A DNA stretch of 64,000 nucleotides from Pelotomaculum thermopropionicum SI (GTDB taxonomy: Bacteria > Bacillota > Desulfotomaculia > Desulfotomaculales > Pelotomaculaceae). The notes beneath the pieces are model-generated. The model had not been told where the DNA came from and did not search any database. It saw nothing but the letters and a program-made list of their open reading frames with translations. Shown here one piece after another: positions 45,734 through 60,647 of this stretch (its first letter is position 1; each line of letters starts with the position of its first letter). The position numbers were made by a program, and so were the translations under genes. Where the stretch lies: assembly GCA_000010565.1 (NCBI GenBank), contig AP009389.1, positions 1,488,001-1,552,000 of the forward strand, in the 5' to 3' direction.

Positions 45734-45850
45734 CTCTTATCCGGAGTGGCGGAGGGACTGGCCCTATGAAGCCCGGCAACCTTTGGGTATATAGGCGTAC
45801 CCAAAAAGGTGCTAATTCCTGCAGGAGATTTATCTTCTGACAGATAAGGG
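45734..45850 (+). promoter_or_regulatory. SAM-I (S-box) riboswitch
   Basis: The S-box consensus is present in order: CTTATC opening P1, GGAGTGGCGGAGGGA, CTGGCCCTATGAAGCCC, GGCAACC, a P3 hairpin (TTTGGGTA...TACCCAAA), GGTGCTAATTCC, and CAGATAAG closing P1. High SAM should stabilise the aptamer and favour the terminator that follows. Confidence 0.96.
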
Positions 45851-45866
45851 AAAAGCAATGTTTGCT

Positions 45867-45900
45867 GGCCTCTTCTGTTTGGAAGAGGCCTTACGTTTAT
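45867..45900 (+). terminator. Terminator of the SAM-I riboswitch
   Basis: GGCCTCTTC (45867-45875) and GAAGAGGCC (45882-45890) form a 9-bp stem followed by TTACGTTTAT. It is the expression platform, 39 bases before the first gene. Confidence 0.75.
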
Positions 45901-45938
45901 CGGAGCGGAAGAGCACAATCAGGGGAGGTATTGCTAGT

Positions 45939-47144
45939 ATGGCCATTGAAAAAACTTATGCAGAGATCAACGAAAAGATTAGATCTGGTAAAGCGGTGGT
46001 AATGACGGCAGAGGAAGTCATCTCTCTGGTGAATGAAAAGGGGTTGACGGAAGCTACCAGACAGGTTGACGTGGTAACCACGGGAACATTCGCCCCGATG
46101 TGTTCTTCCGGAGTTTTCCTGAACTTTGGCCATTCCAAACCCAGGATCAGGATGCAGAAAGTATGGTTAAACGGCGTCCCTGCCTATACCGGCATCGCTG
46201 CGGTAGATGCTTACTTGGGTGCTACAGAACTTCCGGAAGATGACCCTTGCAACAGCAATTACCCGGGCGAATTCCGCTACGGGGGCGGCCACGTAATCCA
46301 GGATCTGGTGGCCCGTAAGCCAATCAAGCTGAAAGCCGTTTCTTACGGCACCGACTGTTACCCGAGGCGTGAAATTGAAACCTATATTACCCTTGACGAC
46401 CTCAATGAAGCAACCCTTTTTAACCCGCGCAATGCTTACCAGAACTACAACTGCGCGGTTAACCTGGGCAACAGGACCGTTTATACCTACATGGGAATGC
46501 TCAAACCAAACCTTGGCAATGCTCACTATTGCAGCGCCGGACAGCTTAGCCCGCTATTAAACGATCCCTATTTTCTAACCATCGGCATCGGCACCAGGAT
46601 CTTCCTGGGGGGAGGAATAGGTTATGTGGCCTGGCACGGCACCCAGCATTTCCCGGGCATTCTTAAGGACGGCGAGGGAAATAGTTACGGCCCGTCCGGG
46701 GGTACTCTGGCAGTAATCGGGGATCTTAAACAAATGAAACCCAACTGGCTGGTCGGAACAAGTTTCCTGGGCTATGGTGCCACCCTTACTGTAGGCATCG
46801 GCATTCCCATCCCGATCCTTAACGAGGAAGTAATGCGCTGCGTTTCTGTTAGCGACCGGGAACTGTATGCTCCTATTGTCGATTACAGTGAAGCTTATGG
46901 CCAGCGCATTCCCGGCAACCTGGGATACGTCAGCTACGCTGAACTGAAATCCGGCAAGATTATTGTTAACGGAAAGGAAGTGCCAACGGCTCCCCTGTCC
47001 AGTTATCCCAAGGCCAGGGAGATTGCAGGCATATTAAAAAGCTGGATTCAAAAGGGCGAATTTCTTCTTACCGAACCGGTGAAGCTGCTTCCTTCTTATA
47101 AGGACGGGATTGCGGCAAAGTCGCTGGAGATCAAGGGGATTTAA
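45939..47144 (+). CDS. DUF39/COG1900 homocysteine biosynthesis protein
   Basis: 401 residues. COG1900 proteins are required in methanogens and other anaerobes for making homocysteine from aspartate semialdehyde and a sulfur donor, without O-acylhomoserine. The two Cys expected for sulfur chemistry are seen in TGTFAPMCSSGVFLNFGH (~57) and SYGTDCYPRREIE (~136). ATG 45939 follows GGGGAGG; the frame extends back into the terminator and is not used there. Control by a SAM riboswitch agrees with a role in methionine synthesis. Confidence 0.9.
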   Translation: MAIEKTYAEINEKIRSGKAVVMTAEEVISLVNEKGLTEATRQVDVVTTGTFAPMCSSGVFLNFGHSKPRIRMQKVWLNGVPAYTGIAAVDAYLGATELPEDDPCNSNYPGEFRYGGGHVIQDLVARKPIKLKAVSYGTDCYPRREIETYITLDDLNEATLFNPRNAYQNYNCAVNLGNRTVYTYMGMLKPNLGNAHYCSAGQLSPLLNDPYFLTIGIGTRIFLGGGIGYVAWHGTQHFPGILKDGEGNSYGPSGGTLAVIGDLKQMKPNWLVGTSFLGYGATLTVGIGIPIPILNEEVMRCVSVSDRELYAPIVDYSEAYGQRIPGNLGYVSYAELKSGKIIVNGKEVPTAPLSSYPKAREIAGILKSWIQKGEFLLTEPVKLLPSYKDGIAAKSLEIKGI

Positions 47145-47203
47145 AAGGCAAATGGAGTTTATCCCAAAAAGGAACCGTCCCCCCAGGAAAAGGAGTGAAA
47201 TCC

Positions 47204-47605
47204 ATGTCACCCAAAAAAATAATCCTGCGCTTTGACAAAGATATATCTGATAAGCCCATCATCTACCGCCTGGCCAAGGACTACGATCTGGTCATCAACA
47301 TCATTAAGGCCAATGTCAACCCGAATAAAGAAGGCACGATGGTTTTAGAACTGACCGGAGAAAAATACGACCAGGGATTGGAGTTTTTAAAAAACCAGGG
47401 GGTCAGAGTGCAGCCCCTGGCGGAAGAAGTGTTCAGAAACGAGGAAAAGTGCACCAGTTGTGGCGCCTGCACGGGCATTTGCCCCTCCGGCGCGCTGTAC
47501 ATTGAAAGGCCTTCAATGGAGGTCAAATTTGATAGCGATAACTGCATTGTCTGCCAGATCTGCGTCAAAGTATGCCCGGTAAAAGCCATGGAGGTCAGGT
47601 TTTAG
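47204..47605 (+). CDS. NIL domain protein with two [4Fe-4S] clusters (homocysteine biosynthesis)
   Basis: 133 residues. An N-terminal NIL domain (~1-75), known from methionine-transport ATPases, then two ferredoxin motifs: CTSCGACTGICPSG and CIVCQICVKVCPVKA. It is the usual partner of COG1900 proteins and probably supplies electrons for sulfur transfer. ATG 47204 has AAGGAG upstream; the in-frame GTG 47195 is within that site. Confidence 0.9.
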   Translation: MSPKKIILRFDKDISDKPIIYRLAKDYDLVINIIKANVNPNKEGTMVLELTGEKYDQGLEFLKNQGVRVQPLAEEVFRNEEKCTSCGACTGICPSGALYIERPSMEVKFDSDNCIVCQICVKVCPVKAMEVRF

Positions 47606-48349
47606 TTGGAATACAAGGAGAGGACGTACCGCCGGTTATTCCGCCAGGACGATTTGATTCACTTTCAGGTGGTGGTGCAGCAGACCGACCTTGACATTGG
47701 GGTGCGCCGGGAAAGGTTTTCTCCTGAACTCGTCCGCTGGGTGGAGGAAATGGTACGGAAGCAGCGGGCCCTCCTGGAAAAATACATCGAAGAGGACCCG
47801 CAATTCCTGCATTCTCTTGTCCCCTGCCCGTTAAAACCCACTGCTCCGCCTATAGCGGTGGACATGGCTAAAGCGGCCAGCCTGGCCGGCGTGGGACCGA
47901 TGGCCGCCGTGGCCGGCGCCTTCGCCCAGCACATCGGCCGGGCGCTGGCCAGGCGGTCGAGAGATGTTATTGTGGAAAACGGCGGCGACATTTATATGCG
48001 CAGCGCCGTAAAGCGCAGGATTGGTATCTTTGCCGGCAGGTCCCCCCTGTCGAACCGGATTGCCCTGGAAGTCAGGCCTGAAGATACTCCGCTGGGGATA
48101 TGCACCTCTTCCGGAACCGTCGGACCATCCCTCAGCTTTGGCAACGCCGACGCCGCGGTAATCCTTTCCCCCTCCGCTACTCTGGCCGATGCGGTAGCTA
48201 CTGCCGCCGCCAACCTGGTTAAAAGTAAGGAGGACATTCAAAGAGCGGCCGAATTTGCAACCGGCATCGAGGGAATAACCGGCGCGGTGGTCATCAAGGA
48301 CGACCACCTGGCCGCCTGCGGAAAGCTGAAGCTCGTACCCGTGGCTTAA
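47606..48349 (+). CDS. UPF0280/COG2122 family protein (homocysteine biosynthesis)
   Basis: 247 residues with VDMAKAASLAGVGPMAAVAGAFAQ and DVIVENGGDIYMR, the ApbE-like/UPF0280 signature. COG2122 genes occur with COG1900 and NIL-ferredoxin genes and take part in anaerobic homocysteine synthesis; the exact step is not known to me. TTG start immediately follows the previous stop, with GGAGG upstream. Last gene of the S-box operon. Confidence 0.88.
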   Translation: MEYKERTYRRLFRQDDLIHFQVVVQQTDLDIGVRRERFSPELVRWVEEMVRKQRALLEKYIEEDPQFLHSLVPCPLKPTAPPIAVDMAKAASLAGVGPMAAVAGAFAQHIGRALARRSRDVIVENGGDIYMRSAVKRRIGIFAGRSPLSNRIALEVRPEDTPLGICTSSGTVGPSLSFGNADAAVILSPSATLADAVATAAANLVKSKEDIQRAAEFATGIEGITGAVVIKDDHLAACGKLKLVPVA

Positions 48350-50033: not shown

Positions 50034-50777
50034 TCAATTTAACAATACACCGCCTGCAGGCCTTTCAAGCTTGTCAGGGCCGGTCGCGGCAAGATAGTCA
50101 CTGATGCCCTGCGCCACCGCCCTGTATACAGTGCGGCCTACCAGATAGCCCAGGTCGGTGGCAGATCCAGCGTATGGCAGGGGTTTTCCCCTTCCGGTAC
50201 AGGCGATGACAATGGCATCGGTAGTGGTTCCTGTAGCCATGGCGCCGTCCGGCAGGCGGATGCCGGCCTGAAACACCGCCCTGGTCTTGGCCTCTGTAGC
50301 TGTGATTACAGCATTGACCATTGCGGCTTCGGTCAGATTGCCGTCGATAAGAACCACTGTATTAATCGTCCCCGGCGCAGCCACGCTTTCACTCACAGCA
50401 GTAAGGCTCCCGGCCGAACAGGCGTTGCTCACTCCGGCAGTGCAGACTGTAGCAACCGCCAGGTCTTGTCTTGTGCCGAAGCTCATCACTGTACGCCTGA
50501 CATCCACGGCCGTCATTAAGCCCAAAACATCTTTACCAAGGTTCATCCTTTCCGCCAGGCGGGCAAGGTCCTCCGCCGGGGACTCGCTGCTGTATGTTTC
50601 TTCAACGGTGTGGTTCATAATAAACCTGGCCCGCCGCCGCTCACCACCCAGCACGGCGGAACTCAGGACCTTTAATAATTGCCGGGAAGCTATTAGAAAG
50701 GTTTTATTCTCGACCAGATAAAAGCTGATTCCCTTGATTGGGACATTCATGTTAAAAGCAGTAAGCTCTTCAAACAA
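50034..50777 (-). CDS. cbiZ: Adenosylcobinamide amidohydrolase CbiZ
   Basis: 247 residues. CbiZ cleaves the amide between the corrin ring and the nucleotide loop, letting salvaged corrinoids be rebuilt with the cell's own lower ligand. Family motifs: MTAVDVRRTVMSFG (~88-100), CTAGVSNACSAG, GTINTVVLIDGNLTEAAMVNA and the C-terminal ATGTTTDAIVIACTG. TTG start with GGAGTGAG upstream. Downstream of a B12-regulated ECF transporter, it fits a salvage and remodelling role. Confidence 0.93.
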   Translation of the reverse strand: MFEELTAFNMNVPIKGISFYLVENKTFLIASRQLLKVLSSAVLGGERRRARFIMNHTVEETYSSESPAEDLARLAERMNLGKDVLGLMTAVDVRRTVMSFGTRQDLAVATVCTAGVSNACSAGSLTAVSESVAAPGTINTVVLIDGNLTEAAMVNAVITATEAKTRAVFQAGIRLPDGAMATGTTTDAIVIACTGRGKPLPYAGSATDLGYLVGRTVYRAVAQGISDYLAATGPDKLERPAGGVLLN

Positions 50778-50855: not shown

Positions 50856-51611
50856 TTATTTAGTACCCAGATCCTGGGCTGGCAGGTAACTGACTTCCAG
50901 CTTTTTTTTAGTCCTTTTCAAAATTTTCACCACCCCTGTGCCGCAAAAGAAGTAAAAAAATACGTTGCCCAGGGCGTGACAGGTGTCAAACCAAAAGCTG
51001 GCGGCATAGGTAGTCAAAAAAGACTGCCAGTTAAGAGGATAAATAAAAGCCGTCCAAAACCACAAATTCATTATCCAGCCATAGATGTAGCCCCAGGTGA
51101 ACAGGAAGGCCGCCATGCCCCACCGCCCTACCTGGGGGAAAACGGCACCGAAAAGGGCCGCTGAAGATCCGGCCAGCCCCCAGGTGAACATCTGCCAGGG
51201 CGTCCACGGCCCCTGGCCGAGAAAAAAGTTGGATACAATCGCAGCGGTCGATCCGACCATAAATCCTCCCCGCGCCCCAAAAACGTAACCGGTAATAATT
51301 GTCAAAAAGGTTACGGGCTGGATGTTAAACAGTGCGGCAAAGGGCACTCTGCCTACAGCTGCCACTGTCCCCAGCACCGCAATGACAGCGATCTCCCTGG
51401 AGGAAATAGCGCTTCTCTCAAATCCCCAGTATAAAAATACAATGGCAATGAAGACTATTTCTGCTGAAAGAAGGCCCCAGTTCTGCCTGGCCAACGGGCT
51501 CCCGGGACTGATCGACATGGCCAGCAACCCGGCCACGGCCAAAAGAAAAAGAGGGAATTTCAATTTAAAAAGATAGTCCGGCAAACCAGCCACTTCCTTT
51601 ACCCACAACAT
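50856..51611 (-). CDS. ECF transporter substrate-binding (S) component, probably for corrinoids
   Basis: 251 residues, six to seven hydrophobic segments with short loops, including EIAVIAVLGTVAAVGRVPFAALFNIQP (residues ~72-98; key part AAVGRVPF) typical of S components. Position beside EcfT, the double ATPase and cbiZ, under a cobalamin riboswitch, points to a B12 or corrinoid substrate, similar to CbrT systems. The assignment of substrate is from context. ATG follows the ATPase stop directly; an internal TTG with AAGGAAG upstream is the alternative. Confidence 0.82.
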   Translation of the reverse strand: MLWVKEVAGLPDYLFKLKFPLFLLAVAGLLAMSISPGSPLARQNWGLLSAEIVFIAIVFLYWGFERSAISSREIAVIAVLGTVAAVGRVPFAALFNIQPVTFLTIITGYVFGARGGFMVGSTAAIVSNFFLGQGPWTPWQMFTWGLAGSSAALFGAVFPQVGRWGMAAFLFTWGYIYGWIMNLWFWTAFIYPLNWQSFLTTYAASFWFDTCHALGNVFFYFFCGTGVVKILKRTKKKLEVSYLPAQDLGTK

Positions 51612-53307
51612 TTATCTCTGCCGGCTGCTTGCCACCTGGGCAGGAAAAAACCACAGTTTTTCCACCGCTTCCTGCAAGGTAAGCACATGAGTGTCAATGT
51701 CCCGGAACAACCTGCAAATTTGCGGGGCGTAAAACATGGAGCTGGCCAGAACAGCGTGCTTCGGGCCTTCGCAGGCAACCTGCCCGTCGAAAAGCATTAC
51801 CACGCGCCCGGCATATTCAGCCGCAAATTCCACATCGTGGGTTACCAGAACTACGGCAACCCCCTCCAGGGTAATTTCCTGCAGCAGCTTTCCTAGCCCG
51901 GCCTTCAGCCGGTAGTCAATGCCACGCGTCGGCTCGTCCAGCACCAGAAGCTTCGGGCACGCCACCAGTACCGAAGCCAGTGCCACCCGCTGCCTTTCCC
52001 CGCTGCTCAAGTCCCGCGGGTTGACATGCCGGCAGCGTGCCAGGCCCAGCTTCTCCAGCAGCCGTTCTACCCTGCCGCCATCAGGCAGGCCCAGGTTGGC
52101 CAGGGTAAATTTTAACTCCTCCTCCACCGTATCTTGAAAAAGGTAATCGTTTGGGTTTTGGGAAAGGTAGCCCACCAGGCCGGCTAATTGCCGAGGCGCA
52201 GTCCTTCCAGTATCATTCCCCATTATCAGCACCTTGCCGCGCCCGGGCTTTAAAAGCCCGGCCAGGTGCTTCAGCAGGGTAGTCTTGCCGGCAGCGTTTT
52301 CTCCCAGCACAGCTACGAATTCACCGGCGTTAACCGTTAAATTTATGCCCCGCAATGCCTCGCGGCCATTGGGGTAGGTAAACCACAGGTTCTTAACTTC
52401 AACTACCGGCTTTCCTCCTGTCGCCCCTTCAGGTTCTTTCTGTCTGCCTGAATGTGGGGCTAATCCCCTGTCTTCAGGGGAAAAGAAATATTTTTTCAAC
52501 AGCTTGCGCCCTTCTTTCACGGTGAGCGGTATTGCCGGAAAGTCGAGGTGGGCAAATAGCGCGGCCACCGGCGGAACAAAGGGCAGCCCTTTTTTTACCT
52601 GCCATGCGGCTACCTCGCCTGGCGGCCCTTCCCGCACGATTTGGCCGCCCTCCATCACCGCTACCCGGTCGGCCAGGTGAAAACACCGCTCCAGGCGCTG
52701 TTCTATTAAGACAATGGTCAGGTTCATCTCCTCGTTCAGCCGCTTGACCAGGTTGAGAATTTCCTCTGCAGCTGCCGGGTCCAACTGGGACGTTGGTTCG
52801 TCCAGGATCAATACACGCGGCTGCATGGCCAGGACCGAGGCCAGGGCCAGCTTTTGCTTCTGCCCGCCGGACAGGCTGGCAGTAAACTCCTTTTTAAGCG
52901 AGGAAAGGCCCAAAAAACTCATAACCTCGGCCACCCGGCGAAACATTTCCAGCCGAGACAAACCCAGGTTTTCCAGACCGAAGGCTACCTCCGCCTCAAC
53001 CCCGGTCATGACCAGCTGCTTCTCCGGGTCCTGAAAAACAATCCCCACCTCTCTGGCCAGGTTTCGCCTGTCCAGAGCGCGGATGTCTCTTCCTTTAAAG
53101 AAGACCTTGCCTCCAATCCTGCCTCCATAAAAATCTGGAATCAAACCAACCAACCAGGGCGCGGGCAAGGGAGGACTTGCCTGAGCCAGAGCCGCCGCTC
53201 ACCAGCAAAAACTCGCCTTCAAAAACAGTGAGGTCGATGTCCAGCAGAGCCGGCCGTTCTGATTCAGGATAATAATAAGTTAGATTTTGGACCTTAAATA
53301 CTGACAA
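51612..53307 (-). pseudogene. Double ECF ATPase, frameshifted by a 4-base repeat expansion
   Basis: Fused EcfA-EcfA' ATPase. The first ~50 residues, from a TTG at 53307, end with Walker A GGSGSGKSSLARALVG in one frame. The other 518 residues, from PAPWLVGLIPDFYGG, are in another frame. The break lies exactly at AACC x3 (53144-53155). With two copies the frame reads ARALVGLIPDFYGG, the normal family sequence, giving 563 residues. The remaining motifs are intact: SLSGGQKQKLALASVL, LDEPTSQLD, and in the second half GENAAGKTTLLKHL, LSSGERQRVALASVL, LDEPTRGID. Full activity needs Walker A joined to the rest, so this allele is probably off. Confidence 0.85.
53144..53155. repeat. (AACC)3 tetranucleotide repeat causing a frameshift
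   Basis: Three tandem AACC units (GGTT on the coding strand). Removing one restores the ATPase reading frame, which indicates slipped-strand duplication or a sequence error. Confidence 0.9.
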
Positions 53308-54209
53308 CGCTGCCACCCCCAACTCAGTCCAGCAGGCAGGGACAGCCCGCCCAGAACGGCAGCCAGGACAGTTACGGTGGCGCTGCCGTCGAAAAGGTAT
53401 CCCAACTGCGGATAATAGGTATAGGTTCCAAAACCATGTATTATGCCGTAAATCGCAACGATCAGGGAAAAAATGCTGCCGGCCAGGCACAGTCCGTCCC
53501 GTGGCCGGAAAAACTCCCGCCGGTAGCACGAACGGGGCCCGCTGCCGAAAGCGCGCGCCTGCATTGCCTCGGCCATCTGCAAAGAGCCTTCCAGCGACGA
53601 GACCAGCAGAATGTTAAACAAGGAAGCATATTTGCCGGCCCGCTCTTTTAATGTCCCTGCCTGAAAATCTACCCCTCTGAGCTGCTGCATTTCCCTGATG
53701 CTGCTCATAGAGGCGGTCATTACCGGAAACAATCTAGTGGCCAGTGAAACAACCAGGGCAGACTTGTAGGCAAAGCGGGAAAACAGGTTCAACAGCCGGT
53801 CCGGGTGGACAGTGAGGTTATAGAGGCAGAAAATGCTGATCATGTCCAAAAGCCGTACCCCCATGGCGGCCCCGTAACAGATTGCTTCCAGGGTAATGGT
53901 CAGCCGGCCCAGGACCGGCAGGTACGGCCCGTGCCAGAGCACGGTCTGCCCCGCCCGGACCACCAGGGGGTTGATTACCATGACCAGGAATACCATCCAC
54001 AAAGCAATTTTAAGATAACCTTCCCAGACCGCAATCCCGTCTGCCGCCCAGATAGCCAATGCAGTCACGATGAAGATTCCTGCAAGGTAAACGGGATGGG
54101 AGAAGGCAAGGGCCAGCACAAGCAGCACCGCTATATAACAAAGCGCCACGGCAGAGTGCAGGCTTTGGAGAAACAGCCCCTTTTCCTGATAAAAGAATTG
54201 TTGCAACAT
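53280..54209 (-). CDS. ecfT: ECF transporter transmembrane component EcfT
   Basis: 309 residues, hydrophobic N-terminal half (about four to five helices), then the cytoplasmic coupling helices with EMQQLRGVDF (~173) and MAEAMQARAFG (~217), the two ARG-type motifs that contact the ATPases, and C-terminal helices. It is the scaffold that tilts the S component. The 3' end overlaps the ATPase start by ~28 bases. Confidence 0.88.
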   Translation of the reverse strand: MLQQFFYQEKGLFLQSLHSAVALCYIAVLLVLALAFSHPVYLAGIFIVTALAIWAADGIAVWEGYLKIALWMVFLVMVINPLVVRAGQTVLWHGPYLPVLGRLTITLEAICYGAAMGVRLLDMISIFCLYNLTVHPDRLLNLFSRFAYKSALVVSLATRLFPVMTASMSSIREMQQLRGVDFQAGTLKERAGKYASLFNILLVSSLEGSLQMAEAMQARAFGSGPRSCYRREFFRPRDGLCLAGSIFSLIVAIYGIIHGFGTYTYYPQLGYLFDGSATVTVLAAVLGGLSLPAGLSWGWQRCQYLRSKI

Positions 54210-54284: not shown

Positions 54285-55685
54285 CTACTTGCAGATGATC
54301 ACTGTCCGCTCTTTTTCATCCCAACTTACTGCATAACCAAAAGCCTGGGCCACATAGCGGGCAGGCAGGTAGGTACGGCCGGGAGGCAGCAGCAGCGGAG
54401 TCACGTCCATCGTTACCGGTTGGCCATTGACATACAAGATGTTTCCCCCCACGGTCAGGGTGACCGTAATGCCGTTATTTGCCAGGGTTACAGTTTGGGT
54501 AGAAGGCGACCATTCGATCCCGCTTTCCGGCACGCCGAGGGCCAGGGCCAGGTAGCGCACCGGTACAAAAGTGCGGCCGTTCTCCAGGAAAGGCGCTGCG
54601 TCCGCCTCCCTAACCTGCTTCTCCCCTTCGATGCTTACCTCATAATTTTTCTCGCCCAATTTAAACCGGATTGCCCGCTGAGGCTGTACCTTCCCTGTAG
54701 CAGCGGAACCAGCCGGATTTTTCTCCCTCAGCCGTTCAAAGACCGTTTTTCCGTAATATACGTCCGCCAGGGCCTGCAGCGCCTGTTCCGTGGCCATTTC
54801 ATTGCTCCCTGTGCCTTTTATGTGCTCAAAAGACCCGTCCGGCAGCTGGTAGCTCTGAAGCGCTGTGACCGGATTGCCGCCGGGCTTAGTCCAGTCTGCT
54901 CCGGCCGGGTCGATCCCTACCGCAATCAGCCCTGAAATGACCATGTGGCACGATTCCGGATTCGGAGCGCCCCAGGAGGAAAAGCCGCCGTCTTCTTCCT
55001 GGACCCTCTTCAGGTAGGCAGCTGCCTTTTGCACAACGGGGCTGTCATTCTTTTCACCCAGGGCGCCGAGGGCCATCAGCGCCATACCGGTGGAGTCGAC
55101 ATCGGGCTTCTGGTCCGCCAAGATCCAGTTAAAGCTGCCGTCTTCGTGCTGCTGGTCAATGAGCCACTGCCTGGCCTTTTGGGCATCCGGTATCTCAGCC
55201 CCGGCTGCATAAAGGGCCAGCACGGCCCAAATATGTGCATTGACCAGAACCTGCCCACCCTTTTCGCCCATCCCGCTGCCGTCAACATTATCGGCAAACT
55301 TGCCGTCGGAAAGCTGGGCTGCACGGATCCTCTCCACCAGGTTTTGCCCCTGGTAATCGTACGGACTCTGCCCGGCAGCCAGTAAAGTAAGCACCAGCAG
55401 GCTGTAACCGTTCAGCTCGCTGGACTGCAATTCGGCAAACTGCTTCCGGCATGACTCCTGCACCCTGGTGCCGGTAAGGTCCTGCCCGCAGCCGGCCAGG
55501 GCCACATAGCTCCACGGTGTCAGCGGACGCCCCTGTGTTCTTTCCTGCATCAGCAAATAACCGGCAGCCCGTTCCATGGCCGGCCCGGCACCGGCCGCCG
55601 GCAACGCCCGGACCGTTACGGGAGAACTGAGAAAAACAATCATTGCCATAAAAAATAAAACAAAAACCTTTTCCGCTATCCGCAT
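54285..55685 (-). CDS. Secreted transcobalamin-barrel-like protein with Cu-amine-oxidase-N domain
   Basis: 466 residues from ATG 55685, with AAGGAG upstream inside a longer frame. Signal peptide ~1-28 (MRIAEKVFVLFFMAMIVFLS). Residues ~35-320 hold prenyltransferase/squalene-oxidase-type repeats such as DGSFNWILADQKPDVDSTGM and EEDGGFSSWGAPNPES. They form an alpha/alpha barrel like the alpha domain of transcobalamin. Residues ~345-466 hold copper-amine-oxidase-N repeats (ENGRTFVPVRYLALALG; LPPGRTYLPARYVAQAFG), commonly used for wall association in clostridia. Corrinoid binding is inferred from domains and operon. Confidence 0.8.
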   Translation of the reverse strand: MRIAEKVFVLFFMAMIVFLSSPVTVRALPAAGAGPAMERAAGYLLMQERTQGRPLTPWSYVALAGCGQDLTGTRVQESCRKQFAELQSSELNGYSLLVLTLLAAGQSPYDYQGQNLVERIRAAQLSDGKFADNVDGSGMGEKGGQVLVNAHIWAVLALYAAGAEIPDAQKARQWLIDQQHEDGSFNWILADQKPDVDSTGMALMALGALGEKNDSPVVQKAAAYLKRVQEEDGGFSSWGAPNPESCHMVISGLIAVGIDPAGADWTKPGGNPVTALQSYQLPDGSFEHIKGTGSNEMATEQALQALADVYYGKTVFERLREKNPAGSAATGKVQPQRAIRFKLGEKNYEVSIEGEKQVREADAAPFLENGRTFVPVRYLALALGVPESGIEWSPSTQTVTLANNGITVTLTVGGNILYVNGQPVTMDVTPLLLPPGRTYLPARYVAQAFGYAVSWDEKERTVIICK

Positions 55686-55724
55686 TGCCTCTGACTCCTT
55701 CCTCATAATTTTTGCTGCCGTAAA

Positions 55725-56405
55725 TTAATTATTTCTTACCAGTCCCTCCCAGGTGGGCGGCGGTGTGTCCATGCTCTTGCTGTACCACCAGATCACCTTG
55801 TCACCTGATGCCACCGGTTTCTTGTCGGCGGCAACCATGGGGATTTCCTCGTTTACTTTATACATCCAGCCCGCCTGTCCTTTATTGCGCTGCCCGGCTA
55901 CAGCCTCGACAAAGCCGGCAAAGCCGGCAGATATATTGTAAGGCAAGCCCGTAGCGTCCAGGGCGCCCAGGGCCGTTGCACCCCACCTGCCCTTTTCTTT
56001 TAACTGCACGGCCGCCGGCCCGAAGAGGAGTTCTCCGTCCTTTCCCACCACCGCAACATTGACCGTAACCGCATCACTGCCCGGAGCGGACGGCAGATCA
56101 GGAGAATAGCTTTTACCGGAAACACGAGAAAAACCAGGACCGTTTAAACCATCTCCCTCTTTCCGGGCTGCACTGACAGGAGGCATTTCAGAGGAAGGCT
56201 GCGCTGAAGCTCCTGTTTCCGTAGCAACGCTGCCGCTGGTATTGCCAGAAGAAGAATTCCCGCCAGCGTTTGATTGAGCTGCAATTTCGCTGGACGCAGC
56301 CGGAGGAGCATTGCTTTTGTTAATCTTTTTTGTATAAATTGCCGGGCCCAGCAAACCGAGTAAAAGAAAGAGAGCGGGGATAATAAAAAGAATTTTTCTT
56401 TTCAT
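55725..56405 (-). CDS. Secreted DUF4430 protein
   Basis: 226 residues. Signal or membrane-anchor segment ~4-24 (ILFIIPALFLLLGLLGPAI), a low-complexity Ser/Gly/Ala linker (~30-110), then a DUF4430 domain (~112-226) with GRWGATALGALDATGLPYN and GWMYKVNEEIPMVAADKKPV, ending in GDKVIWWYS. DUF4430 corresponds to the small beta domain of transcobalamin/intrinsic factor, which closes over bound cobalamin. It may complement the barrel-only protein next door. ATG follows AAAAGGAG. Confidence 0.85.
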   Translation of the reverse strand: MKRKILFIIPALFLLLGLLGPAIYTKKINKSNAPPAASSEIAAQSNAGGNSSSGNTSGSVATETGASAQPSSEMPPVSAARKEGDGLNGPGFSRVSGKSYSPDLPSAPGSDAVTVNVAVVGKDGELLFGPAAVQLKEKGRWGATALGALDATGLPYNISAGFAGFVEAVAGQRNKGQAGWMYKVNEEIPMVAADKKPVASGDKVIWWYSKSMDTPPPTWEGLVRNN

Positions 56406-56488: not shown

Positions 56489-59400
56489 TCAGAAATCAAC
56501 CAGCGCCCGGTATATCATAACCGCACATTCCGCCCTGGTCACAGTTCCATGAGGCTCAAAGGCACCACCGGGATAGCCCTTGACCAGCCCGGCCGATGCC
56601 GCCACTGCCACACTGTCTTTCGCCCAGTCTGAAACTTCACCAGCGTCGGTAAAAGGCAGTTCCGTACCGGAAGGAGATTTAAGGCCCAGTGTCCGCACCA
56701 GGACGGCAGCCAGTTCTTCCCTGGTAATGGCCCTGTCCGGACAGAAAGTACCGTCTTCATATCCTTTGAGCAACCCTTCCTTAGCTGCTGCGGTAACGCA
56801 GCCGTAATACCACTGGTTCCCCGGCACATCTTTGAAAGTCAGGCTGCCTTCTGGCGCTGGTAAGTTCAGGGCCTTAACCATGATGCTTGCCACTTCGGCC
56901 CTGGTGATCGCCCGCTCCGGCTCATAATGCTTCCCGTCCACACCTGCGATTACCCCTGCGCCGGCCAGTATCTCAACGGCATCCTGCGCCCAGCCACAGG
57001 CAGAAGAAGTCACATCGTCGAAGGACTTCTTTTCTTCCTTAACCAGCACGGTAAAATAGGAGAAATGACTTACTTTTGCCAGGATTAGCCCTTTACTGAC
57101 ATCCACCACCGCCGGGATGGCAATCCATTTGCCGTGAGTCTTGTCGTACCACGCCAGGGCCAGGTTCTCCGGCCGGGCCAGAGGAGGTAAAGCCACTTTC
57201 AGGATCAGCGTCGCCGGTACTGTAAATGTAGTCCCGTCCGGCCCGAATTTGTAAACCGGCGAGGCCATGCGGTAGTTCGCCGGCACAGGCGGCGTCCCGC
57301 TTCCTGCCGTGCTGCCCGCGCCGGAAACTGCATCCTCCTTAATAGTTATCGTTACATCACTGTTCAGGGCGCCGGCCTGAATGGAAAGGGCTACCTCGCC
57401 AAGCTTATCGGTAATGGTTGCTCCCTTTGTAGCCTCTATCTTCTGAGTCAGATCGATGATGTTCTCGGTCAGTTCTTTTTTCAGGGCGGCGATCTCGGCC
57501 CGAACCGGGAGTTTGTCGCCGCCCACAACGGCCACCGTTTTAACTGCTTCACCCAGCGGGCCCAGTTCAGTGGTATCTTGTTTCAACCCCAGTAACTGGG
57601 CTAACTTGTTCAGAGCCTCACCGGCCTCCTTCGAAGGTTGCAGGGCCGGCGGGAGGTTTTCCGTCGTTTTAGTTTCGGCTGCCACAGTAGCGGATCCCTT
57701 CAACAGGCTGTCCCAGTCAGGACTGGGGGAATTCATGTCCGTGCTGTACCACCAGATGACCACGTCTCCCTCTTTTACCCGTTTATCCTTGGCCGATACC
57801 ATGGGTACCTCCCTGTTGACCTTGTACATCCAGCCTTTCATTCCACTGTTAGCCTGCCCGGCGATGCTCTTCACAAACCCGTTTTCTTCGACGACATAGT
57901 CTAAGCCCGTGGCATCCAGGGCGCCCAGGGCCGTAAGGCCCCACCTGCCAGCCTTGCTCACGGTCAAGCTTTCCGACATGTACAACCGCTCTCCATTCAT
58001 GCCCACGACGGCGATTTTAACGGTGCACTGGTCCGGTTCAGGCACAGGCTGGCCACCGCCGCCGGGACCGCCCTGGCCGCCGACCAGGAGAAGAGCTGAC
58101 AGGGTCTCAGCCGCTCCAAAAACGTTTCTGGAGGTGCCGAAGCTGCCGTCGTCGTTCATGGTGTTGTTCAGCAGGTAGTCCACCGGGGTCAGGCCGGCGC
58201 TGTTTTTCCAGTCTGCCCCGGCCGGGTCTTTGCCCAACTTTTTCAGCGTAACTATCAGCTCGGAGTTGTCCACCGCCGGGTCGTCCCAGCCTGAGTAAAC
58301 GCCGCCGTCAGGCTGCTGCAGGCCCTTCAGGTAATCCAGGCCCTTGCTTATGGCCGCCTGCACCTGCTGGTCGTCAGCACCCGGCAGGTAGGTAAGCGCC
58401 CGGATGGCCTGGGTGGTGGACAAAAAGTCGGGATAATAATCTGTTCCAAATGTTTCTCCCCAGGAGCCGTCTTCGCCCTGCTTCGACAGAATGTACTCCT
58501 TCGCAGCAGTAGTGTCGATACTGCTGATCTTGCCGGCCTCGCCCAGGGCGATGTAGGCCCACATGTCGCTGTAGACGCTGTTCTCAAAGGACCCCTTGCC
58601 CGGGTCACCGGTTCTTTGCCGCCCGGCCAGCAGGCTTGCCAGCCGGTTCTGGCGTTCCGTACTGCCGTCCCATCTGCTTAGCGCCAGCAGGCACTGGGCA
58701 ATGGTCTTAGTCTTCGATTTTTTCACCCAGGGCGAAGCGGCGCCGGCGTAATCTTCATAACCCTTGCCGAGGGATTTTAAAGCAATCAGGGTCTCTGCCG
58801 TGGCAAAGGTGCTGTCCCACTGGGCCGGAACGGCCGCAGTGTCGGCGTCCTGGATGTCCGCCAGGTAGGTGAGGCCGTCCTTGATGGCCTGATAAACGTC
58901 GCTGCTTTGGTCGCCAGCCCCGGTAAAATAACTGAGCGCTGTAAGCACCTGGGCCGTCAGGTCCGGCTCCTCCTGGTAGTAACCGCCCCAGGCCGCCCCG
59001 GCCGGGCTTCCCCAAATATCTTTATGGGAATGCTTGAAGGTGTTGAGATAGGCCAGGGCCTTTACCTGGTCGATGTCTTTAAGCCTGCCCGCCTTTCCCA
59101 GGGCAGTCAGGACAAGCACGTCATCGTAAACATTGTCGCCGAAAAACACCTGGCCGGGAACGGAAGTGTTCGCCTGGGCAATAATAGCGTCAGCCAGGTC
59201 GTTTATTTCATCCGAACCGGGGCAAACAGCGCAAAGGACGGTCAGCTCCTTGGCGAGGTATACGGCGTCTTTAACTGTTGGGTTGGCTGCTGTAGCGGCA
59301 GCAGAAGCCATTACCGCCTCCCTGAGGGAAACACCGTTATACGTCCAGTCGCTGACAGAAAGGTCCTCGCCGGCCAGAGCCAGGGCCTCCACGCAGCGGT

Positions 59401-60013
59401 AATCGAAACCCCAGCCGTTTACATCATAGGTCATGCTCCCGCTCCGGTAGCCGTTCTTAAAGTAAGAGACGGCTAGATCAATCGAACTCTTTACCTGGTC
59501 GTAAACAGCAGTGCCTACCGTATCGGCTTTGACTGCCGCCAGCGCCTGAAGAGGCGCCTTGGTGCCGTACTCGTTGGCATACGGGCCAAAGCTTCCGTCC
59601 CCATTCTGGGTGCCGGTTATAAAAGTAATCATGCTGTTGCCGTCGCCGAGCAGGTCGGCCAGCTTTTCTATTTTGCTCTTTAAAGTCTTATTATTACTCG
59701 TATACTCCGGACTCCCCGTCCACTTCTCAGATGCCAGATCTTCCCCAGCCAGCTTTAAGACATATGCCGCAAAACCGTCAATTTTTTCCCCGTCCTGGTA
59801 TTTTTCATTTATAAATTCTACAGCCCTTTGGGCCATTTCGGCGGAAGTCAACGGCTCGGCAGAGCAAATTCCCGTAAAAGTTCCAAAATTAATAACCGAA
59901 CTTAATAAAAAGAAAATTAGTGCAGATAAGGTAAAAACCTTTTTTTTGGTTCTGGTTTTTTTAAAGGCAATATTCAAAGCATGTCTTACAGCCATAAAAA
60001 TATTTTTCGCCAA
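56489..60013 (-). CDS. SLH-anchored surface protein with prenyltransferase-type barrel and DUF4430 (transcobalamin-like)
   Basis: 1174 residues from TTG 60013 (GGAGGGGG upstream; the ATG at 60028 lies before that site). A long N-terminus with a signal helix (~30-50); prenyltransferase-type repeats in two blocks (~60-640; e.g. NGDGSFGPYANEYG, GEDGSWGETFGTDYYPD, PDGGVYSGWDDPAVDNS); DUF4430 (~662-771; GRWGLTALGALDATGLDY, GWMYKVNREVPMVSAKDKRV); a ZU5-like beta domain (~845-990); three SLH repeats (~994-1174; ITRAEVA, ITREELA, VTRAECA). It should sit on the cell surface, bound to wall polysaccharide. Barrel plus DUF4430 is the transcobalamin pair, so corrinoid capture is likely. First gene under the B12 riboswitch. 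Confidence 0.85.
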   Translation of the reverse strand: MAKNIFMAVRHALNIAFKKTRTKKKVFTLSALIFFLLSSVINFGTFTGICSAEPLTSAEMAQRAVEFINEKYQDGEKIDGFAAYVLKLAGEDLASEKWTGSPEYTSNNKTLKSKIEKLADLLGDGNSMITFITGTQNGDGSFGPYANEYGTKAPLQALAAVKADTVGTAVYDQVKSSIDLAVSYFKNGYRSGSMTYDVNGWGFDYRCVEALALAGEDLSVSDWTYNGVSLREAVMASAAATAANPTVKDAVYLAKELTVLCAVCPGSDEINDLADAIIAQANTSVPGQVFFGDNVYDDVLVLTALGKAGRLKDIDQVKALAYLNTFKHSHKDIWGSPAGAAWGGYYQEEPDLTAQVLTALSYFTGAGDQSSDVYQAIKDGLTYLADIQDADTAAVPAQWDSTFATAETLIALKSLGKGYEDYAGAASPWVKKSKTKTIAQCLLALSRWDGSTERQNRLASLLAGRQRTGDPGKGSFENSVYSDMWAYIALGEAGKISSIDTTAAKEYILSKQGEDGSWGETFGTDYYPDFLSTTQAIRALTYLPGADDQQVQAAISKGLDYLKGLQQPDGGVYSGWDDPAVDNSELIVTLKKLGKDPAGADWKNSAGLTPVDYLLNNTMNDDGSFGTSRNVFGAAETLSALLLVGGQGGPGGGGQPVPEPDQCTVKIAVVGMNGERLYMSESLTVSKAGRWGLTALGALDATGLDYVVEENGFVKSIAGQANSGMKGWMYKVNREVPMVSAKDKRVKEGDVVIWWYSTDMNSPSPDWDSLLKGSATVAAETKTTENLPPALQPSKEAGEALNKLAQLLGLKQDTTELGPLGEAVKTVAVVGGDKLPVRAEIAALKKELTENIIDLTQKIEATKGATITDKLGEVALSIQAGALNSDVTITIKEDAVSGAGSTAGSGTPPVPANYRMASPVYKFGPDGTTFTVPATLILKVALPPLARPENLALAWYDKTHGKWIAIPAVVDVSKGLILAKVSHFSYFTVLVKEEKKSFDDVTSSACGWAQDAVEILAGAGVIAGVDGKHYEPERAITRAEVASIMVKALNLPAPEGSLTFKDVPGNQWYYGCVTAAAKEGLLKGYEDGTFCPDRAITREELAAVLVRTLGLKSPSGTELPFTDAGEVSDWAKDSVAVAASAGLVKGYPGGAFEPHGTVTRAECAVMIYRALVDF

Positions 60014-60241
60014 CTTAACCCCCTCCATCTTTTTAATGCTCGTTTCGCTTTTTTACCGCTGTAATTCAAAATACTAGCTTTTTCACCTCAGCAATAGCCG
60101 AAGTTTTAAATATTTCTATCTAAAGCGCAGCATTGTTTTAAAAGAGTGCCTGGCCGGGAAAGGTCCTGGATTTTCCCGGTCAGGTGGACGGTTACGCAGC
60201 AAAATACGTAACCTCAGATTTTAGGAAGAAGGAGATCAATT

Positions 60242-60280
60242 GAAAAACCCGGCTTCCTCCGCTTGGAAGCCGGGTTTTTC
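60242..60280 (-). terminator. Terminator of the cobalamin riboswitch
   Basis: A perfect 16-bp stem, GAAAAACCCGGCTTCC (60242-60257) with its complement at 60265-60280, ending in TTTTTC on the minus strand. It lies between the aptamer and the SLH-protein gene and is the likely expression platform. Confidence 0.88.
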
Positions 60281-60348
60281 AAAGGTTTTGAACCTTTTTG
60301 TAAACGCGACTTTTAGCCCTGGCCTTTCCACGGAAGGCGGTACTAAAG

Positions 60349-60600
60349 CTACCAGGCAGGTCTCCTGACTTGTGGATCACAGCGTATCCCCCGCCTTCCC
60401 ATCCTGCACTCAACGGCACTTCACAACAACCTTTCAAACCAGCTGCCTCAGGCAAAATTTCAGGCGCCTTCGACAGCCGGGATGCCGTTGAGAATCGGAC
60501 AGTGGCATCCTGGGAGCCGCTCCCCACTTACAGTGGCCGGACCGTCCGGGATTTTCACCCGGTTCCCTTTTCACCCCCGGTAAAACCGGGAGAACCTGGT
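60349..60600 (-). promoter_or_regulatory. Cobalamin (AdoCbl) riboswitch
   Basis: On the minus strand, in order: GGTTTTACCGGGGGTGAAAA then GGGAA, GGTGAAAATCCCGGACGG, GCCACTGTAAGT, a variable arm, GGGAAGGCGGGG, and the B12 box AAGTCAGGAGACCTGCCTGG (60352-60371). Length and order match the class-I cobalamin aptamer. It should shut off the downstream corrinoid genes when B12 is plentiful. Confidence 0.96.
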
Positions 60601-60618
60601 AAATATTATTTTGCATTA

Positions 60619-60647
60619 ATTTTACATTATTTGATTTGTTTTGTCCA
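60619..60647 (-). promoter_or_regulatory. Promoter ahead of the cobalamin riboswitch
   Basis: On the minus strand TGGACA (60642-60647), 17-base spacer, TAAAAT (60619-60624). It is located ~20 bases before the aptamer and after the fmdE stop. Confidence 0.6.

Follow-up and report, generated by a model that had tools for sequence, protein, structure and literature searches.

A predicted wall-anchored corrinoid receptor with a barrel inserted in a barrel and a candidate self-cleavage site in Pelotomaculum thermopropionicum

What is the role of a large surface protein of Pelotomaculum thermopropionicum SI that combines alpha/alpha barrels, a DUF4430 domain, a ZU5-like domain and three S-layer homology (SLH) repeats in one chain? 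Its gene lies in a stretch of 64,000 nucleotides, hereafter called the window, which corresponds to positions 1488001-1552000 of the single 3,025,375-base contig of this genome (AP009389.1). Judged from the sequence and from structure prediction, the protein is very probably a cell-wall corrinoid receptor that serves an energy-coupling factor (ECF) importer in a B12-repressed uptake system. Capture of corrinoids through the fold of the protein and control of its gene by B12 are both well supported, and the conserved context of a riboswitch and ECF genes is the strongest evidence on the function of the receptor.

The genome contains three cobalamin riboswitches, and one of them heads the receptor operon. 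The riboswitch is located 325 nt upstream of the receptor start, and the receptor gene is the first gene that follows it (Table 1). Moreover, EcfT, two EcfA domains and an S component are all encoded in the same operon. Homologues of the receptor were detected in 58 of 120 relatives, and a scan of the genome contigs yielded 68 named loci, which mostly belong to Bacillota (Pelotomaculum, Moorella, Thermovorax, Tepidanaerobacter relatives and Desulfofundulus). The genomic context was counted at 42 loci having a large receptor open reading frame (ORF) and at least 5.5 kb of downstream sequence. EcfT and EcfA are each encoded downstream of the receptor at 39 of these loci, the T, A and S components occur together at 38 and a short DUF4430 gene is also present at 30. 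All 21 loci that were tested and hold upstream sequence have a cobalamin riboswitch upstream on the same strand. At 18 of them no more than 0.9 kb separates it from the receptor ORF, and at the other three it heads a longer run of genes.

Translation of the receptor starts at a TTG codon (60013, minus strand) that is preceded at a distance of 5 nt by the ribosome site GGAGGGGG. An alternative ATG codon at 60028, which would give a product of 1179 residues, coincides with this ribosome site. An earlier note, made from the sequence alone, had described a single ORF for 1174 residues and the domain order barrels, DUF4430, ZU5 and three SLH repeats serving as S-layer anchor. The start codon with its ribosome site bears out the former, and Pfam together with the predicted structure confirms the latter, with a signal peptide in front and two alpha/alpha barrels behind it. 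The signal peptide is putative, as it was judged by eye from a basic N-terminus followed by a hydrophobic segment. Pfam recognises the three SLH repeats (E 1.9e-40), the DUF4430 domain and toroid repeats of the SQHop_cyclase_C family (E 1.5e-9). The ZU5 domain has no Pfam match at E<1 and was seen in the predicted structure instead. The genome also encodes one protein of the wall polymer pyruvylation family PF04230 (E 4e-39), a family-level assignment that does not imply CsaB identity. The nesting of the barrels, the located candidate cleavage site in the ZU5 domain, the upstream riboswitch and a frameshift in EcfA go beyond what the earlier note had described.

The predicted structure of residues 50-778 (model confidence, pLDDT, 93.9) contains 24 helices and the DUF4430 fold. 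The modelling proposed earlier for counting the barrels thus gives two 12-helix barrels, which we call A and B. A Foldseek search with the model of barrels and DUF4430 against 350,542 chains of the PDB returned human transcobalamin as the best match (E 2.8e-8), in agreement with the previous claim that both transcobalamin-type domains are joined in one chain. Human and rat transcobalamin were followed by squalene-hopene cyclases, haptocorrin (E 4.9e-7) and intrinsic factor (E 1.4e-5), and the isolated beta domain of human transcobalamin was also among the matches. In the structural comparison with VIA, 331 of the 385 residues of intrinsic factor were aligned to barrel B and DUF4430 (model residues 3-710) at a root-mean-square deviation (rmsd) of about 22, and therefore the two domains match intrinsic factor singly and not as a closed rigid body. 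The link to transcobalamin rests on the Pfam DUF4430 assignment, on the fold match and on the work of Burroughs et al. (2007).

Table 1 Features of the receptor operon and of the predicted receptor (positions in the window)
Feature	Position	Strand	Residues	Basis or remark
Promoter-like hexamers TGGACA-17-TAAAAT, just upstream of riboswitch	60619..60647	minus		10/12; consensus match only
Cobalamin riboswitch aptamer	60338..60614	minus		RF00174, 121.6 bits (cut-off 31.5), E 5.5e-30
Strong hairpin with T run behind it, after aptamer; candidate riboswitch-controlled intrinsic terminator	60240..60282	minus		-31.4 kcal/mol, z -6.3
Predicted SLH-anchored corrinoid receptor, 1174 aa	56489..60013	minus		TTG start
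Barrel B, first three helices (transcobalamin-like host barrel; signal peptide before)	59672..59854	minus	54-114	
Barrel A, complete 12-helix alpha/alpha barrel inserted in barrel B	58739..59671 (limits approximate)	minus	~115-425	
Barrel B, other nine helices	58064..58738	minus	~426-650	
DUF4430/transcobalamin beta (SLBB) domain	57701..58033	minus	661-771	Pfam E 9e-13; human transcobalamin beta domain 5no0 in Foldseek matches
ZU5/GAIN-type beta domain	57035..57463	minus	851-993	predicted structure
H-F-S, candidate autoproteolysis site (between F984 and S985), turn between last two strands	57059..57067	minus	983-985	
Three SLH repeats, cell-wall anchor	56492..57025	minus	997-1174	Pfam; SLH structures
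226-aa protein, N-terminal membrane anchor and DUF4430 (stand-alone beta domain)	55725..56405	minus		
473-aa secreted protein, one alpha/alpha barrel and Cu_amine_oxidN1 domain	54285..55706	minus		Pfam
ECF transporter T component, CbiQ family	53280..54209	minus		Pfam E 4.8e-15
Dual ECF ATPase (EcfA), frameshifted	51612..53529	minus		Walker-A half in ORF 53095-53529, remainder in ORF 51612-53168
ECF transporter S component	50856..51611	minus		PF12822 E 5e-7, just under cut-off; position conserved in relatives
CbiZ, adenosylcobinamide amidohydrolase	50034..50777	minus		Pfam E 1.2e-58

We infer that the riboswitch would permit transcription when cobalamin is scarce, and that the receptor would be secreted and docked to the wall through its three SLH repeats. 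A corrinoid would be captured between barrel B and DUF4430. From there it would reach the ECF S component for import, with the membrane-tethered DUF4430 protein and the stand-alone barrel protein as probable intermediates. CbiZ could then open salvaged cobamides for remodelling. Barrel A may provide a further binding site or act as a handover partner. The ZU5 domain, a module of the GAIN/ZU5 type, separates the receptor part from the anchor and carries the residues for self-cleavage between F984 and S985; after such a cut, the last beta strand would be the sole link between receptor and anchor.

Several observations weigh against this interpretation. The ligand-free model does not adopt the closed arrangement of transcobalamin. 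However, the alpha and beta domains of the animal transcobalamins come together only in the presence of cobalamin (PMC11107200), and for this reason the open model does not refute the proposed binding mode. The earlier note had made its reading depend on a toroidal barrel and on a contact surface between barrel and DUF4430; the toroidal barrels are present, and the contact part cannot be used as worded, given this dependence on cobalamin and the lack of the closed pose in the ligand-free model. Moreover, a DUF4430 profile search of the PDB sequences did not find transcobalamin. The S component has no NCBIfam match and could not be placed in a named B12 S family such as CbrT, PF12822 being its sole, sub-cut-off assignment. 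The EcfA of the window is split by an extra TTGG, apparently a duplication, in the TTGGTTGG run near 53150, and relatives such as L036, L039, L052 and L054 encode EcfA in one frame. The frameshift reflects either a damaged importer in this strain or a sequence error, and thus the window's own importer may not work. Finally, the genome carries CbiD and CbiC, which suggests that the organism probably also makes corrinoids. Uptake may therefore be a salvage route and not the sole source of corrinoids.

The element between receptor and anchor deserves separate treatment. The predicted structure of residues 785-1000 (pLDDT 91.1) confirmed the ZU5-like beta domain that had been proposed next to the SLH repeats, with the ankyrin ZU5 domain 3f59_C as the best structural match (VIA Z 12.5; 127 residues aligned at an rmsd of 2.0). 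The GAIN domains of CD97 (Z 9.4) and BAI3 (Z 8.3), CARD8 (Z 8.0), UNC5b (Z 7.8) and NLRP1 (Z 7.2) were matched as well; Z values below 8 would be weak on their own, but members of the ZU5/GAIN superfamily make up most of the matches as far as about rank 28. H983, F984 and S985 are located in the turn between model strands 192-199 and 202-208, the last two of the domain. The alignments to the GAIN and NLRP1 structures with known or expected self-cleavage 4dlq_A (to residue 837), 5kvm_A (to 382), 8hc0_A (to 566) and 6x6a_B (to 1212) all stop at model residue 200, which is F984, opposite the end residues of the N-terminal fragments that we take to be the P1 residues. S1213 of human NLRP1 is a cleavage-site residue and the CARD8 variant S297A is resistant to cleavage (PMC11760013), and the cleavage site of the G-protein-coupled receptor (GPCR) proteolysis site has been given as HXS/T (PMC3776922).

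A search for a conserved autoproteolytic site, as had been recommended, revealed that H-x-[ST] is kept in 49 of the 57 unique ZU5 domains of the receptor family, with Ser or Thr at P1' in 53 and His at P2 in 50. Among the 133 columns of the ZU5 alignment, H983, F984 and S985 rank 5th, 9th and 11th in conservation. Furthermore, 41 ZU5 domains were compared from other surface proteins of the order, and 40 of them contain H-x-[ST], usually as HFTKFAV (35 were counted by script and five by eye, one or two of the latter on rows ending at the motif); L157 has HCG at this position. Of 113 genomes of the order, 90 contain ZU5 domains, and its surface proteins are rich in ZU5-like domains that carry H-F-[ST]-K-[FY]-A-V (L133-L172), with up to 13 in one genome. 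The only other ZU5 domain found in the genome of P. thermopropionicum itself belongs to a 790-aa SLH protein (L102; 188520-188903, plus strand) and ends with DHLTKFAVF, which closely resembles the cleavage motif of adhesion GPCRs.

Self-cleavage of the receptor between F984 and S985 is plausible, with a chance that falls a little short of even. The fuller proposal, namely that the receptor cuts itself while folding, that, as in adhesion GPCRs, one beta strand alone then holds its head on the SLH anchor and that such stalks are widespread in the order, is more tentative still. If the ZU5 domain does cut itself, a mechanism familiar so far mainly from proteins of inflammasomes and from animal receptors would extend to bacterial surface proteins, and self-cutting stalks would allow the receptor head to be released under force or on demand. 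The opposite view, to which we give an even chance, is that the domain is a structural spacer in which H-F-S is kept for the folding of the last hairpin. Its best structural match is an ankyrin domain, and we know of no ankyrin ZU5 domain that cleaves itself. In eight of the 57 homologues, the His or the Ser/Thr is gone (the site reads R-F-A, H-L-G, Q-S-G, R-I-D and others), and yet these proteins retain the fold and the operon. In L007 and L008 the ZU5 domain is missing altogether and DUF4430 runs directly into the SLH repeats. These losses indicate that cleavage is not needed for receptor function. However, a mere spacer does not account easily for the conservation of P2 and P1' in the receptor family, for the nearly constant motif in the other surface proteins or for its position opposite the fragment ends of the cleaved structures.

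The arrangement of the two barrels of the predicted receptor was derived from structural matches of two kinds. One is contiguous (model residues 76-367) and the other is discontinuous (model residues 4-599), which means that barrel A sits inside barrel B. Accordingly, homologues with a single barrel align to the receptor up to about residue 100 and again from about residue 435, skipping the middle. In L051, for instance, residues 5-91 align to receptor residues 14-99 and residues 117-858 to receptor residues 435-1171. L037 and L051 are 81% identical apart from one clean insert of about 310 aa, the inserted barrel, which is present in the former and absent from the latter. Barrels A and B share 34% identity over 187 aa (E 6e-16), and this likeness identifies barrel A as a paralogous insertion. 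Among the 69 homologues, 23 are nested, to which the receptor of the window is added, 45 have a single barrel and one is unclear. On a tree of barrel B and DUF4430, the trait changes about five times, at least two of the changes being backed by starred branches; a single clean origin of the nested form is thus not supported. The nested second barrel represents an unusual evolutionary step, and L037 and L051 provide a natural presence/absence pair to probe it.

Barrel A probably does something specific. Its mean majority conservation (0.675) is on a par with that of barrel B (0.663), compared with 0.42 for the linker, and its invariant polar and aromatic residues include Q136, N137, D139, D204, R206, H330, W342, E349, D351, T353 and Q355; both features point to a specific role. 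A lesser though serious possibility is that barrel A serves as a spacer or for dimerisation and is not a second site for ligand binding or handover. One barrel suffices in two thirds of the homologues, L051 seems to be a clean single-barrel member of a nested clade, and the chain contains no DUF4430 partner for barrel A. Across the loci read, no consistent pairing of a nested barrel with a stand-alone barrel gene was observed. Against a role as spacer stands the conservation of barrel A, which is as strong as that of barrel B and DUF4430.

The substrate could also differ from complete cobamides. B12 riboswitches control the uptake of cobalt and of B12 precursors too, the T component belongs to the CbiQ family, CbiZ acts on adenosylcobinamide and, as mentioned above, the S component is not assigned to a B12 family. 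The system might thus import cobalt or a precursor or part of B12 such as cobinamide, alpha-ribazole or dimethylbenzimidazole. We regard this as improbable. No CbiM or CbiN gene was seen in the operon, and the alpha and beta domains of transcobalamin-type proteins enclose the whole corrinoid (PMC11107200). Moreover, ECF-CbrT accepts both cobalamin and cobinamide (PMC5997447), which makes a corrinoid of either form a likelier substrate than cobalt. Finally, the Pfam name squalene-hopene cyclase and the cyclases and glycoside hydrolases among the barrel-only structural matches (Z 18-22) might suggest that the barrels act as terpene cyclases or glycosidases. We reject this reading as very improbable: DXDD, the motif typical of class II terpene cyclases, is missing; the protein is predicted to be secreted and wall-anchored and is fused to DUF4430; its gene belongs to an ECF operon under a B12 riboswitch; and transcobalamin is the best match of the whole model.

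How does the predicted corrinoid receptor relate to known systems? Proteins in which a toroid is fused to an SLBB domain of the transcobalamin C-terminal clade, encoded in CbiO/CbiQ operons, were predicted in 2007 to scavenge B12, and a Desulfotomaculum example was included (Burroughs et al. 2007; PMC1796856, as far as the text was accessible). The receptor resembles the proteins described in that portion of the text in having the toroid N-terminal to DUF4430/SLBB, in being predicted to be secreted, in its CbiO/CbiQ-type operon and in the second SLBB paralogue. In contrast, the nested second barrel, the ZU5 domain, the SLH anchor and the riboswitch are absent from the same portion, and the bacteria treated there usually lack key enzymes of B12 synthesis, whereas CbiD and CbiC are present here. 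The toroid-SLBB architecture with its operon for B12 scavenging is already published, and the nesting and the ZU5 stalk with its candidate site appear to be the new parts. In the literature searched, which was incomplete, neither a nested barrel nor a ZU5 domain that joins a B12 receptor to an SLH anchor and retains the cleavage site was described, and nothing directly matched an SLH-anchored transcobalamin-like protein or a bacterial GAIN domain. However, autoproteolysis of ZU5 domains in bacterial surface proteins has been proposed in general terms (Zhang et al. 2012; PMC3482391). The domain described here shares its fold and the H-x-[ST] before the last strand with the autoproteolytic ZU5/GAIN/FIIND domains of adhesion GPCRs, PIDD, NLRP1 and CARD8. 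It differs from these in that the site is a candidate, lies between a predicted vitamin receptor and an SLH anchor and has been lost in some relatives.

Like the animal proteins transcobalamin, haptocorrin and intrinsic factor, the receptor contains an alpha domain of 12 helices and, C-terminal to it, a beta domain with the beta-grasp fold, as judged from Foldseek and VIA. However, the animal proteins are soluble, have one barrel and are disulfide-bonded, whereas the receptor is predicted to be anchored to the wall and has a barrel inserted in a barrel. The B12-capturing lipoproteins of Bacteroides are known as BtuG; they belong to an outer-membrane system and their fold is unrelated to that of the receptor. 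The predicted capture of corrinoids at the surface ahead of an importer is common to both systems, as far as the accessible part of the report on the lipoproteins goes (PMC6143338). The predicted ECF-type import of corrinoids is shared with ECF-CbrT of Lactobacillus delbrueckii (PMC5997447). Unlike ECF-CbrT, the system described here combines dedicated surface receptors, its own EcfA/T set and CbiZ in one riboswitch operon, and its S component was not matched to CbrT. The operon offers a testable bacterial counterpart of intrinsic factor and transcobalamin, with regulation, importer and remodelling enzyme together, and a concrete system for studying the capture of corrinoids by Gram-positive anaerobes across their thick wall.

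Some further features of the loci and of the window may be added. At L050 and L081, CbiZ is encoded near the receptor operon but upstream of the receptor gene, and two cobalamin riboswitches are arranged in tandem at L050, L038 and L061. At L079, L086 and L097, a large receptor-like chain carries two or three copies of DUF4430; L086 and L097 have no ECF genes nearby. A contig of a Methanocorpusculaceae archaeon (L100) contains a 1197-residue frame that carries DUF4430 domains. In the window itself, a SAM (S-adenosylmethionine) riboswitch precedes genes at 45734-48349 on the plus strand that encode a 428-aa protein, a ferredoxin-type protein and a 247-aa protein, a group that presumably resembles the DUF39-type set for homocysteine biosynthesis.

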